Shown piece after piece: positions 53,536 to 56,076 of a DNA stretch of 56,921 nucleotides. Every line of letters starts with the position of its first letter. Positions within the stretch are counted from its first letter, which is position 1. Both the position numbers and the translations under genes were made by a program. Below the pieces are notes generated by a model. The model was not told the DNA's origin and did not search any database. It saw only the letters and a list, made by a program, of their open reading frames with translations. Source of the stretch: Sulfurimonas crateris (GTDB taxonomy: Bacteria; Campylobacterota; Campylobacteria; Campylobacterales; Sulfurimonadaceae); NCBI GenBank assembly GCA_945883795.1, contig CAMCYC010000010.1, forward strand, positions 1 through 56,921, in the 5' to 3' direction.

Positions 53536-53553
53536 CTCCACAACTAGCACATA

Positions 53554-53646
53554 TTTTCCTCGTTCCAATGCTCTGCGTTGGAATACATACAATTCCCAAC
53601 TTCAGGCATATATACATTCCCACGGAGACCGTGGGAACGAGGAAAA
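53554..53646 (+). repeat. MITE/REP-like element, copy 1
   Basis: A 93 bp element with perfect 13 bp terminal inverted repeats (TTTTCCTCGTTCC and GGAACGAGGAAAA). Internally it has two hairpins: TTCCAATGC/GCGTTGGAA and CATTCCCAC/GTGGGAACG. The right end lies 3 bp from the stop of the TumE-like gene. No transposase lies in the window. Confidence 0.85.
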
Positions 53647-53649
53647 ATT

Positions 53650-54039
53650 TTAGCTCATGTCAAGGAAAGATTTTTCAATATCACTTATCATATCTTCAAG
53701 TTTCCCACTAAACCCAAATACCTTCTCATCTTTTCCAATATGTTTATGGTGAGGAGGATTTATCTCTTTTACTTTTGGATTCTCATTATGATGGTCAACA
53801 TTATCAAATCTAATGTGATTTTCATTATTGCTATTTATTACACCAACAGCATACTTTTTGATTGTTTTTATATTTTGGCTTATCTCAGATATATTTATAA
53901 AAAAGCTAAACTCTTCAAGCACTCCCTCATCTAGCAAAGAAATATCATCCATTAAATCACCATAATCATGTGAAATATTACTAAGTTTTTCTATTTCCAT
54001 ACATGCATGAATTAACTCGTTAAGCGTGCTATTTTCCAA
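53650..54039 (-). CDS. TumE/DUF6516-like toxin candidate
   Basis: A 129-residue protein. The C-terminal half has HIRFDNVDHH followed 13 residues later by PPHHKHIGKDEKVF, the R-F/Y-D-N ... P-H-H-K-H pattern I associate with the DUF6516/TumE toxin family. The N-terminal half is acidic and helical. TumE proteins act as growth-inhibiting toxins in toxin-antitoxin pairs. Here it is the last of three overlapping genes (11 nt overlap with the one before), none of which looks like the usual DNA-binding antitoxin. The assignment is from motif memory and needs a profile search. Confidence 0.6.
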   Translation of the reverse strand: MENSTLNELIHACMEIEKLSNISHDYGDLMDDISLLDEGVLEEFSFFINISEISQNIKTIKKYAVGVINSNNENHIRFDNVDHHNENPKVKEINPPHHKHIGKDEKVFGFSGKLEDMISDIEKSFLDMS

Positions 54040-54232
54040 GTTTTACCTCGATTTTTTTGATAAAATTGAGATGCTCAATAACATCATGGTATTTATGATA
54101 AGATGTTTGTCTAATTTCTTCTTCTTTTGTATAGAACTCATCAAGAGTGCTAACATTTGCAAATTTTAGCCACTTCTCAAGGTCTATTTTTGCCCTAGTA
54201 AGTAAATTTTGGAGTTTATTTTGTTGTGTCAT
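54029..54232 (-). CDS. small helical protein, middle gene of the cassette
   Basis: A 67-residue, wholly helical, charged protein (KLQNLLTRAKIDLEKWLKFA at the start, HDVIEHLNFIKKIEVKLGK at the end) with no recognised domain. It overlaps the first gene by 17 nt and the TumE-like gene by 11 nt, so the three form one coupled operon. It may be part of an antitoxin or a bridging subunit; this is inferred from position only. Confidence 0.6.
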   Translation of the reverse strand: MTQQNKLQNLLTRAKIDLEKWLKFANVSTLDEFYTKEEEIRQTSYHKYHDVIEHLNFIKKIEVKLGK

Positions 54233-54455
54233 TTTGTTTTTTTGCCAAAGTTTTTAAAAACTCAAGTTGTTCTTTAATTTTGGTTGTTCGTTTATTTATA
54301 CTCGTTTGAATACTATCTTTTTCATCTTGACTAAGAACAAGTTTTTTTAAAAGAAGTTCTTGAACTTTTGCAAGCTCTATATTGACTTGTATATTCTCAA
54401 CAACTAGCGAACTGAATAAGTGTGCGAATTTATTCTGAGCAGTATCCTTATCCAT
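54216..54455 (-). CDS. small coiled-coil protein, first gene of the cassette
   Basis: A 79-residue helical protein with heptad-like Leu/Ile spacing from about 18 to 75 (LLLKKLVLSQDEKDSIQTSI). No DNA-binding motif is seen. AAAGGA about 6 nt before the ATG is a good ribosome site; that site falls in a small palindrome, AAGGATTCCTT, which could regulate translation or bind a repressor. It opens the three-gene cassette. Confidence 0.6.
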   Translation of the reverse strand: MDKDTAQNKFAHLFSSLVVENIQVNIELAKVQELLLKKLVLSQDEKDSIQTSINKRTTKIKEQLEFLKTLAKKQNDTTK

Positions 54456-54527
54456 AAGGAATCCTTTTTTGAACTATCTTTACAATAGAAGATTTTAGCA
54501 TAAACTTCCAAAACACCAGTATACTGA

Positions 54528-54577
54528 TTTTCTTGTTCCAATGTTCTGCGTTGGAATGCATATAATTCATAGCTTCA
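54528..54577 (+). repeat. MITE/REP-like element, truncated copy 2
   Basis: TTTTCTTGTTCCAATG and TCTGCGTTGGAATGCAT match the left half of copies 1 and 3. The right hairpin and right terminal repeat are missing, and the sequence diverges after about 54577. It lies just upstream of the three-gene cassette, so the cassette is bracketed by copies. Confidence 0.75.
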
Positions 54578-54598
54578 TAAAAGAGTGCCTGACGCCCT

Positions 54599-54715
54599 CG
54601 TTATTATTTTACGACTTCGACGAATTAGACACACCCTCCCCATGTAAAAAGATATTTTACTTGATAGTTCACACGGTAGGGGTATGTCGAAGTCGTCTAA
54701 TTCGTTATTATTTTA
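54599..54715. repeat. rearranged palindrome bounded by a 13 bp direct repeat
   Basis: CGTTATTATTTTA occurs at 54599-54611 and again at 54703-54715. Between them the left side reads GACTTCGAC then GAATTAGAC, and the reverse complement of the right side reads GAATTAGAC then GACTTCGAC: the same two 9-mers in swapped order. CCTCCCC and GGGG also face each other. The stretch 54456-54855 contains only this and the adjoining repeats, and no gene that I can support. Confidence 0.6.
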
Positions 54716-54797
54716 GAAATTATATCCCTGTGGGTGAATCTCCACTTTTTAACTTCTTAGTGAATCTCTACTCACATGGGTGTTTTTAAAGTGGATG
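54715..54797. repeat. second hairpin element, copy A
   Basis: It begins AGAAATTATATCCCTGTG and continues GGTGAATCTCCAC; CTCACATGGGTG and TTTTAAAGTGGA follow as facing arms. It shares its opening 18 bases exactly with copy B at 55879-55968. The right arm contains GAATCTC where copy B has the inverse, GAGATTC, so this copy is internally rearranged. Confidence 0.65.
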
Positions 54798-54855: not shown

Positions 54856-55116
54856 CTAAGCTACATGCTTATTCATGTCAAATTTTTTATCAGTATCATA
54901 GACTTTAAAAGTGCCATCTTTGATTTTTTGAATAGCTGATTCTACTCTATTTTTTAAAAGATAAATCTCGTTGTAATTATCATCTAACAATAATTCAAAC
55001 AATCCACTTTCCAAATCATTATCCAAATGCATACCTTTTTCATTTGAAACCACTGCTAATTGAGTTAATAACTCATTTGTTTGATTAAACAAAGTTTCAA
55101 TGTTTTGTTTGCTCAT
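54856..55116 (-). CDS. small helical partner of the JAB-like protein
   Basis: An 86-residue, acidic, helical protein (NQTNELLTQLAVVSNEKG, then ESGLFELLLDDN) with no domain I recognise. Its start lies 20 nt inside the end of the JAB-like gene, so the two are translationally coupled. Immunity protein, antitoxin or accessory subunit are all possible. ATG start; AAGGATATTTATT lies upstream within the partner gene. Confidence 0.6.
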   Translation of the reverse strand: MSKQNIETLFNQTNELLTQLAVVSNEKGMHLDNDLESGLFELLLDDNYNEIYLLKNRVESAIQKIKDGTFKVYDTDKKFDMNKHVA

Positions 55117-55798
55117 AATAAATATCCTTTGTAGAGTTTGAGAATATCGACATTATAAAATGATGATACTCTAATGTGCCTTGTGTTCGTGTAAAAACTT
55201 CAGTTTCTACTAACTTGCGAATCACTGCTGAGGCTTCTATTTGTGCTTCCTTGTATTTTAACACAAGTTCATTGATGTTTTTATTACTTTTAATAATTAG
55301 TCTGTAATATGTCCCCTTACCTGAGAACGCTATAATCTCTGTTAAACCCTTTTGCACAGCTAACATGACATCTTGAAAACTCAATGTTGAACCAGATGGA
55401 TGATTATGAATTAGTTTATTTCCCTTCATCATATTACATTCTGCTTCAGTAAACATCACTGAACTTTCACCACCAAGCTTCTCAAACACAACTTTATTAT
55501 CTTTACCAATAACAATAGCCATCTCTTTATTATTGCCTGTCTCTTTTAAGATTTGATTCTTATAAGGTTTATACAATTTATATTCATCAGCCTTATAGTT
55601 TTTTGTGTAAGTATGATTCTTAGCAATAGTAATAATCTCTTGCACCCTAGCATCACCCAAAGCAAAAGCTTTATTGCGTCTTTTTTCTTGTCCAACATCT
55701 GATAAACTGTTCATGTCGGAATTATATCTCAAAAGGCAACTCTCCACCTCTCTCATAGTCTGTCTAGTATAGAGTTTTGTTGGTGTATGGATTCCCAC
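55097..55798 (-). CDS. JAB/MPN-like metallopeptidase domain protein
   Basis: A protein of up to 233 residues. The C-terminal half has KLGGE followed by KLIHNHPSGSTLSFQD, i.e. H-x-H-P ... S-x-x-D, the zinc-binding pattern of JAB/MPN peptidases. The spacing between the second His and Ser is six residues, as I recall for phage-associated JAB-like domains, not seven as in RadC. The N-terminal 80 residues match nothing I know. The start is uncertain: GTG at 55798, ATG at 55756 or ATG at 55714 (MNSLSDVGQEKRR); none has a clear ribosome site. It lies inside the repeat-rich island. Confidence 0.6.
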   Translation of the reverse strand: MGIHTPTKLYTRQTMREVESCLLRYNSDMNSLSDVGQEKRRNKAFALGDARVQEIITIAKNHTYTKNYKADEYKLYKPYKNQILKETGNNKEMAIVIGKDNKVVFEKLGGESSVMFTEAECNMMKGNKLIHNHPSGSTLSFQDVMLAVQKGLTEIIAFSGKGTYYRLIIKSNKNINELVLKYKEAQIEASAVIRKLVETEVFTRTQGTLEYHHFIMSIFSNSTKDIYYEQTKH

Positions 55799-55878
55799 CT
55801 CAAGAGAGGATAGAACGAAATAATGTGTAACAACTCATTTATTAACCAAAATAGCACTATTTGATGGAAAAGCGGTTA

Positions 55879-55968
55879 AGAAATTATATCCCTGTGAGTG
55901 AATCTCTAAATTTTAACCCTTAAATTTATCATACATGTTATAAAAGTGGAGATTCACTCACAAGGGTG
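55879..55968. repeat. second hairpin element, copy B
   Basis: AGAAATTATATCCCTGTG opens the element. CCCTGTGAGTGAATCTC at 55890-55906 pairs with GAGATTCACTCACAAGGG at 55949-55966, with a single inserted base, giving a stem of about 17 bp around an AT-rich 42 nt centre. This looks like a small non-autonomous element. With copy 3 of the other repeat it fills the 55799-56028 gap, which has no gene. Confidence 0.75.
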
Positions 55969-55980
55969 TATTTCGGGCTA

Positions 55981-56076
55981 TTTTTCTTGTTCCAATGCTC
56001 TGCGTTGGAATACATACAATTCCTAACTTCATGTATATATCCATTCCCACGCTGGAGCGATGGGAACGAGTGAAAA
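55981..56076 (+). repeat. MITE/REP-like element, copy 3
   Basis: A near full-length copy of the element at 53554-53646, same orientation: TTTTTCTTGTTCC, the TTCCAATGC/GCGTTGGAA hairpin, then CATTCCCACGC and GATGGGAACGAG. Terminal repeats are less perfect than in copy 1. Its right 48 bp form the 3' end of the helix-turn-helix gene at 56029-56253. Confidence 0.82.

Follow-up and report, generated by a model that had tools for sequence, protein, structure and literature searches.

A chromosomal gene encoding a putative stand-alone, effector-type JAB protein of probable phage origin was found near the end of a Sulfurimonas crateris contig, overlapping the gene of a small acidic partner, an apparently undescribed protein that is predicted to fold into three helices. 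We put the probability that the two genes form an effector/antidote cassette, in which a phage-derived JAB enzyme is held by its small partner, at roughly 0.5, and the best reading of the unit is a toxin/immunity-type cassette that settles in defence loci. No published description of the pair was found in the literature searched. The window referred to throughout is the whole stretch of DNA analysed, 56,921 nucleotides in length.

Gene pair and surroundings in the window

The two genes, the elements within them and the repeats on either side map to the window as follows.

55097..55798, minus strand: JAB/JAMM-type protein, 233 aa (ORF call, GTG start)
54856..55116, minus strand: partner, 86 aa, acidic (ORF call, homologues, model, pI)
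55097..55116, minus strand: 20-nt overlap between the JAB gene and the partner gene (coordinates)
55523..55525, minus strand: E92, proposed catalytic Glu of the JAMM motif (invariant in an eight-row alignment)
55370..55408, minus strand: HNHPSGSTLSFQD, residues 131-143, HxHx(9)D part of the JAMM motif (sequence; eight-row alignment)
55540..55711, minus strand: N-terminal arm, ~residues 30-86, also in a JAB-less sibling (local scores against L018)
55100..55276, minus strand: C-terminal helical arm, ~residues 175-233, shared with the JAB-less sibling and phage JAB domains
55876..55975, plus strand: hairpin repeat upstream of the pair, an ordinary genus-wide intergenic repeat
54712..54753, plus strand: second, partial copy of the hairpin repeat, downstream of the pair

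The two open reading frames, their 20-nt overlap and the acidic 86-residue partner are present as a sequence-only reading of this DNA had described them. Neither frame is a product of chance, because each has homologues in three further Sulfurimonas genomes and dN is below dS in all compared pairs. The overlap suggests that translation of the two genes is coupled. The GTG start of the 233-aa frame is uncertain, since the first ~30 residues are unconserved among homologues and have low pLDDT in the model, and the true start may lie later, for example at the ATG at 55714. Isoelectric points were 9.25 for the window JAB protein (basic) and 4.85 for the window partner (acidic), and ranged from 9.25 to 9.49 in three full-length JAB proteins and from 4.85 to 6.18 in four partners. 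Promoter-like sites were not above chance (9 found vs 7.8 expected).

The pair had also been placed in a repeat island; the repeats themselves are real, but they are ordinary, and the flanking hairpin, which 52 of the 135 genus genomes carry, is thus not a mark of the JAB pair. A palindromic repeat of REP-like look, with the core GTTCCAATGCTCTGCGTTGGAAT, lies between small gene cassettes three times in this region (53552-53646, 54525-54597 and 55979-56075). Adjoining the JAB pair is a toxin-antitoxin-like operon of three overlapping small genes on the minus strand (53650-54455; 79, 67 and 129 aa), the last of which exceeds the Pfam cut-off for Toxin TumE (38.1 bits, E 1.5e-9); the two genes upstream of it match no family. 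Small minus-strand ORFs at the contig end (56029-56253 and 56584-56919) have weak, sub-cut-off HTH-like matches.

The JAB protein and its phage relatives

JAB domains in bacteria are known from RadC, from ubiquitin-like processing enzymes and from two toxin clades, and the canonical JAMM spacing is HxHx(10)D. In the window protein, the JAMM set (E92, H131, H133, S140 and D143) is invariant in all eight aligned rows of chromosomal and phage relatives, as are N132 and P134, and in a ten-row alignment E92 is missing only from one fragment that starts downstream of it. Six residues separate the second His from the Ser in HNHPSGSTLSFQD, giving HxHx(9)D, with x9 instead of the canonical x10, and this shorter form is common to the window protein and its phage relatives (the MuF-JAB group). 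The spacing had been called unlike that of RadC, and comparison with a RadC-type motif, HNHPSGDPTPSIQD from the polyvalent protein of G476, agrees, the window spacing being one residue shorter.

A structure model of the JAB protein built from seven alignment rows had a mean pLDDT of 74.8, with values of ~83-94 over residues 91-180. The model comprises beta strands at 93-97 and 103-108, a helix at 118-124, a strand at 128-133, a helix at 141-149, strands at 154-159 and 164-169, two long helices and a final strand, and the MPN core is present in this predicted fold. Searched against the PDB with Foldseek, the model matched RadC (2qlc) at the top (E 2.5e-3, prob 0.99) and PfJAMM1 second, with no row passing E 0.001. 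The VIA rows were mostly JAMM/MPN proteins, none reaching Z 8; the highest Z, 6.8, was that of 5lda_A (rmsd 3.7, 107 residues aligned), and the BubCD chain 9ea4 also had Z 6.8 (rmsd 4.3, 118 residues aligned). AMSH was among the fold matches as well.

No model in Pfam, PADLOC, PHROG or NCBIfam names the JAB protein or the partner. The sole Pfam listing for the window JAB protein was PF10597 (snRNA binding; E 0.0032, 18 bits vs a cut-off of 33); RadC (PF04002) fell below Pfam reporting and below the curated cut-off, and Tox-JAB-1 (PF15659) was not listed in the Pfam scan, its match to the L027 MuF-JAB protein having an E of 0.16. Scanned with Pfam and PHROG models, the 233-aa protein showed no second domain, trafficking domains included. 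Searches of PDB sequences gave no match by phmmer with the window protein and no real match with the JAB alignment profile (best E 0.38, RadC 0.81), and Prok-JAB (PF14464) had no match within the protein's own genome. Fold and residues together, that is, a predicted structure and an alignment, support placement of the window protein in the JAB/MPN+ (JAMM) superfamily. The earlier proposal of a JAB/MPN-like metalloenzyme is likewise supported by the invariant JAMM residues and the predicted fold, if not by a PDB match at Foldseek E 0.001, and zinc binding and hydrolysis are predicted.

Outside Sulfurimonas, the searches support two groups of C-terminal domains as the closest JAB relatives, those of phage MuF minor head proteins and those of DarB-like injected proteins. 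The suspected kinship to phage head-associated effectors was thereby upheld, MuF minor head proteins being nearest by both sequence and fold. A phage search with the JAB query recovered three records (Dorea phage DO134P1, Aphanizomenon phage CL131 and one gut phage); the JAB domain of the Dorea phage, used as query, recovered the same three phage records and had no match among plasmids. Four IMG/VR loci were matched in the sequence search for JAB relatives, and among viral structure models 17 rows matched the JAB model at E < 1e-3, seven of which bear the name minor capsid protein. When the window JAB protein alone served as query, close-relative scans recovered none from genome contigs, viral contigs or plasmids.

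The Phage_Mu_F domain was above cut-off in the L003 and L025 proteins, head-and-packaging PHROGs were matched by four MuF-JAB proteins, and a related JAB domain lies within a Sinorhizobium phage PBC5 protein annotated as DarB-like antirestriction. The C-terminal arm beyond the JAB core is common to the window protein and the phage JAB domains, and the same JAB core plus C-terminal arm ends MuF proteins; the window protein thus shares a toxin-type domain with longer delivered proteins. Just upstream of two of the four chromosomal pairs lie ORFs that may be remains of injected phage effectors: the one at L008 has its match in a minor head protein PHROG (E 4e-6), the one at L022 in a ParB C-terminal PHROG (E 4.6e-14).

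In six of nine phage JAB loci, a small ORF of 51-72 aa starts within the last 23 nt of the JAB gene, and downstream in the remaining loci are one 204-aa ORF, one 453-aa ORF and one doubtful 44-aa ORF. The small ORFs have no match in phages and no PHROG, show no homology to the partner of Sulfurimonas in the comparisons made, and may represent different families or simply other head genes. Because phage head operons are tightly packed, a small ORF behind a phage JAB gene is weak evidence by itself.

In a further relative, from G415 (E 1.7e-8; hhalign E 1.1e-10), the pattern reads HSHx(9)D, and the small ORF that overlaps its end is a different one. A small family with a terminal GVA[IV]FC...MDF motif is encoded downstream of the JAB gene in G415 (L057 1925-2095) and also upstream of the JAB pair in G331 (L008 1305-1520), the two proteins sharing 36% identity over 47 residues (E 3e-7) in a single comparison. 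Three other weak matches were set aside: one in G152 falls in an unrelated 395-aa ORF, one in G465 lies in an ORF that resembles YbeY by eye, and that in G476 is the RadC-type domain of a polyvalent protein. This RadC-type JAB domain (HNHPSGDPTPSIQD) lies in a very long phage-type polyvalent protein encoded in a genome of the same family (L061 1-3078).

The partner, its linkage and the restriction-modification settings

The JAB-partner pair is strictly linked within Sulfurimonas. The JAB gene was detected in four of 135 genomes of the genus at E < 1e-38, leaving aside five further matches at E 0.03-0.06, and these same four also carry the partner; in each, the two genes are adjacent and share an overlap, which measures 17 nt in L008 and 20 nt in L006, L007 and the window. 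The proposed coupling to a small gene therefore holds in all four JAB-carrying Sulfurimonas genomes, the 86-aa family accompanying the JAB gene each time. Among 397 high-completeness genomes of the phylum the partner was found in its own genome only, and among 200 genomes of the family, from which the genome of L006 was not drawn, it had seven matches at E < 0.01, four of them strong and three at E 0.001 to 0.01. Amino acid identity across copies is about 41-57% for the JAB protein; measured against the window, it is 42-57% for the JAB protein and 56-63% for the partner.

Both genes are under purifying selection, with dN < dS in every pair compared, dS being saturated in several. Between the window and L006, dN was 0.30 and dS 1.20 for the JAB gene (dN/dS about 0.25), and 0.29 and 2.65 for the partner (dN/dS about 0.11). 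The L007 copy is frameshifted.

The partner was modelled from a five-row alignment (mean pLDDT 82.6) as a three-helix bundle with helices at 3-26, 34-44 and 48-66 and a disordered C-terminal tail, the last 13 residues (74-86) having pLDDT < 50; VA or AA forms the C-terminus in four of five partners, and the tail is otherwise poorly conserved. Foldseek gave no clear match of this model to the PDB (best E 1.3), and no HTH or other family was matched in the family libraries. A likeness to the PezA antitoxin chain 2p5t_A (VIA Z 7.7, rmsd 2.3, 66 residues) was rejected because three-helix bundles score so by chance, and further VIA rows, namely designed mini-binders and staphylococcal complement inhibitors, were dropped on the same ground. 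Homologues of the partner were found neither in viral contigs or plasmids nor, with the L018 partner as query, in phages, and no relatives of it were found adjoining phage JAB domains.

The same cassette was found in restriction-modification (R-M) operons, so the pair is not stand-alone and without relatives. At L024, hsdM, hsdS, the JAB gene, the partner gene and hsdR follow one another in this order on one strand, with gaps of 16 nt ahead of the JAB gene and 9 nt behind the partner gene, and the M, S and R genes all match type I models in PADLOC, which makes this a complete type I R-M operon. The hsdS-hsdR slot is used by one of the four Sulfurimonas pairs. The pairs at L007/L022 and L008/L023 have no R-M gene within the stretches covered, and an R-M link is not visible for the window copy because its upstream side extends only ~1.1 kb to the contig end.

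In another genus of the same family (L018), an MmeI gene (MmeI_TRD, 246 bits) is followed, with a 4-nt overlap, by a 121-aa ORF (1155-1520), which in turn overlaps a divergent partner gene (53 bits to the partner; 98% probability against the partner profile). The 121-aa protein has kept both arms of the JAB protein, and the JAB core is absent. Its scores against the N-terminal arms of the window, L006 and L007 proteins were 57, 58 and 74, each reached by 0 of 2000 shuffles; against the C-terminal arms of all four JAB proteins, 0 of 1000 shuffles each reached the observed score, and the C-terminal arm was also recovered by hhalign (E 2.7e-8). Since the phage domains include that arm too, it would be simpler to suppose that the L018 lineage lost the core than that the core was inserted elsewhere. 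A small gene accordingly lies immediately downstream in all four Sulfurimonas pairs and in the JAB-less sibling, and the unit sits inside an R-M operon at L024 and, in JAB-less form, at L018.

Proposed function, alternatives and known systems

An undescribed effector/immunity or defence pair, as the sequence-only reading had suggested, fits this context best. A MuF-type JAB domain of a phage may have reached the chromosome and lost its head domain, so that it now stands alone. The acidic three-helix partner would most likely bind the basic JAB protein and keep it inactive, probably through contact with the helical arms on either side of the core. Should a phage, for instance, hit the neighbouring restriction system or host gene expression, the partner could be lost or titrated, and the freed JAB enzyme would then act on a host or phage substrate and cause a growth stop or protection from the incoming phage. 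Binding, inhibition, toxicity, trigger and substrate are all features that we infer for the pair; the substrate may be a peptide bond or, by analogy with proposals for RadC and Tox-JAB, nucleic acid or a nucleotide.

An effector held by an antidote fits the linkage, the gene overlap, the opposite charges, the selection, the complete JAMM set and the relatives in phage-injected proteins. Against this reading stand the L007 frameshift and the L018 core loss, which a useful toxin need not tolerate, the rarity of the pair, the absence of partner kin from phages, plasmids and viral contigs as searched, and the gene order: in classical type II toxin-antitoxin systems the antitoxin gene usually comes first, whereas the partner gene is second here. 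A more elaborate version is tentative and, in our judgement, rather unlikely: a captured virion-injected JAB effector and a labile three-helix antidote would serve as an abortive-infection guardian in R-M operons (in the hsdS/hsdR slot and behind MmeI), to be released once a phage has put the restriction enzyme or host gene expression out of action, and the one lineage without the core would keep the arms and partner as a decoy or immunity remnant against phage JAB effectors.

The operon settings might instead point to an accessory regulator, with the JAB protein and partner tuning or licensing the neighbouring R-M system (anti-restriction, alleviation) instead of killing, and with the DarB-like injected relatives being phage versions of the same activity. 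The hsdS-JAB-partner-hsdR order with its 16-nt and 9-nt gaps, the MmeI-sibling-partner arrangement with its 4-nt gene overlap and the JAB domain in the DarB-like antirestriction protein of PBC5 are all consistent with such a role, which is unlikely given that two of the four Sulfurimonas pairs (L007/L022 and L008/L023) lack an R-M gene in the stretches covered and that the hsdS-hsdR slot also takes unrelated defence systems, as reported in the available part of PMC12255303. Decay offers a different account of the sparse spread (4 of 135 genomes), of the L007 frameshift and the lost JAB core of L018, and of the phage-effector-like ORFs beside two copies and the repeat-rich surroundings, namely that an injected-effector remnant and a neighbouring gene persist as phage cargo with no present function. 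We consider this quite unlikely, as dN is well below dS across copies at about 41-57% identity, the JAMM residues are all kept, the overlap is conserved and one copy is tightly inserted in a complete hsd operon.

The least probable of these alternatives, in our view, is modelled on the JAMM enzymes that process ubiquitin-like proteins: the partner would be the substrate, the JAB protein would trim or release its flexible C-terminal tail, and the processed partner would do the work. The complete JAMM residues, the low pLDDT of the last 13 partner residues and the VA/AA end of four of five partners are compatible with processing, although, by analogy with ClpXP tags, a protease degron on a labile antitoxin would explain this end just as well. 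The predicted partner is all-helical with no beta-grasp fold, however, its tail shows little other conservation, nothing resembling an E1 or E2 gene was seen beside the pairs, and the L018 sibling keeps the partner without a JAB core. Read as an effector/antidote cassette, the pair is a small, intact, two-gene chromosomal version of a JAB system in which the partner is defined, nature supplies a core-deleted control and the setting is a restriction operon, and its plasmid size makes the role of phage-injected JAB domains directly testable.

Among known systems, MuF minor head proteins that end in a JAB domain resemble the window protein in the C-terminal arm and in a JAB core containing Glu, Ser and HxHx(9)D, and a small ORF overlaps the 3′ end in six of the nine phage JAB loci, as in the chromosomal pair; the latter differs in standing alone, without a MuF domain and with a different partner, whose family is homologous among itself. 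For MuF toxins, the available part of Jamet et al. (2017; PMC5576092) gives 89.4% of 191 genes as preceding an ORF of < 150 aa, for which immunity is proposed, and the term JAB is absent from its main text. Tox-JAB-1 with Imm65 and Tox-JAB-2 with Imm-NTF2-2 likewise combine a JAB toxin module with a small downstream immunity gene, but as described in the accessible portion of Zhang et al. (2012; PMC3482391) they are mostly RHS or secreted types, whereas the window protein has no Pfam Toxin-JAB1 match and its partner is a predicted three-helix bundle. In the same portion, toxin JAB domains are argued to lack the ubiquitin-tail groove and possibly to act on nucleic acids, a nuclease-like activity being proposed, and the group extends the nucleic-acid proposal to RadC in injected proteins (PMC5512222, as far as available). 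RadC (PF04002) itself shares the HNHPSG string and provides the best Foldseek PDB match of the window model (2qlc), but its His-to-Ser spacing is one residue longer, and the window protein lies below Pfam reporting for it.

The Bub and Bil ubiquitin-like pathways have a JAMM-type fold in common with the window protein, but no E1, E2 or ubiquitin-like gene was present among the neighbours examined, including the nine window flanking ORFs scanned with Pfam, of which the right flank ends with the contig. A parallel in gene placement is given by PrrC in EcoprrI and by DarTG2, which, according to the available parts of PMC12707154 and PMC12255303, are separate effector units in the hsdS-hsdR slot; the enzymes are different and the slot is seen in one of four Sulfurimonas pairs, and at L024 the JAB gene and its partner occupy it in the same way.
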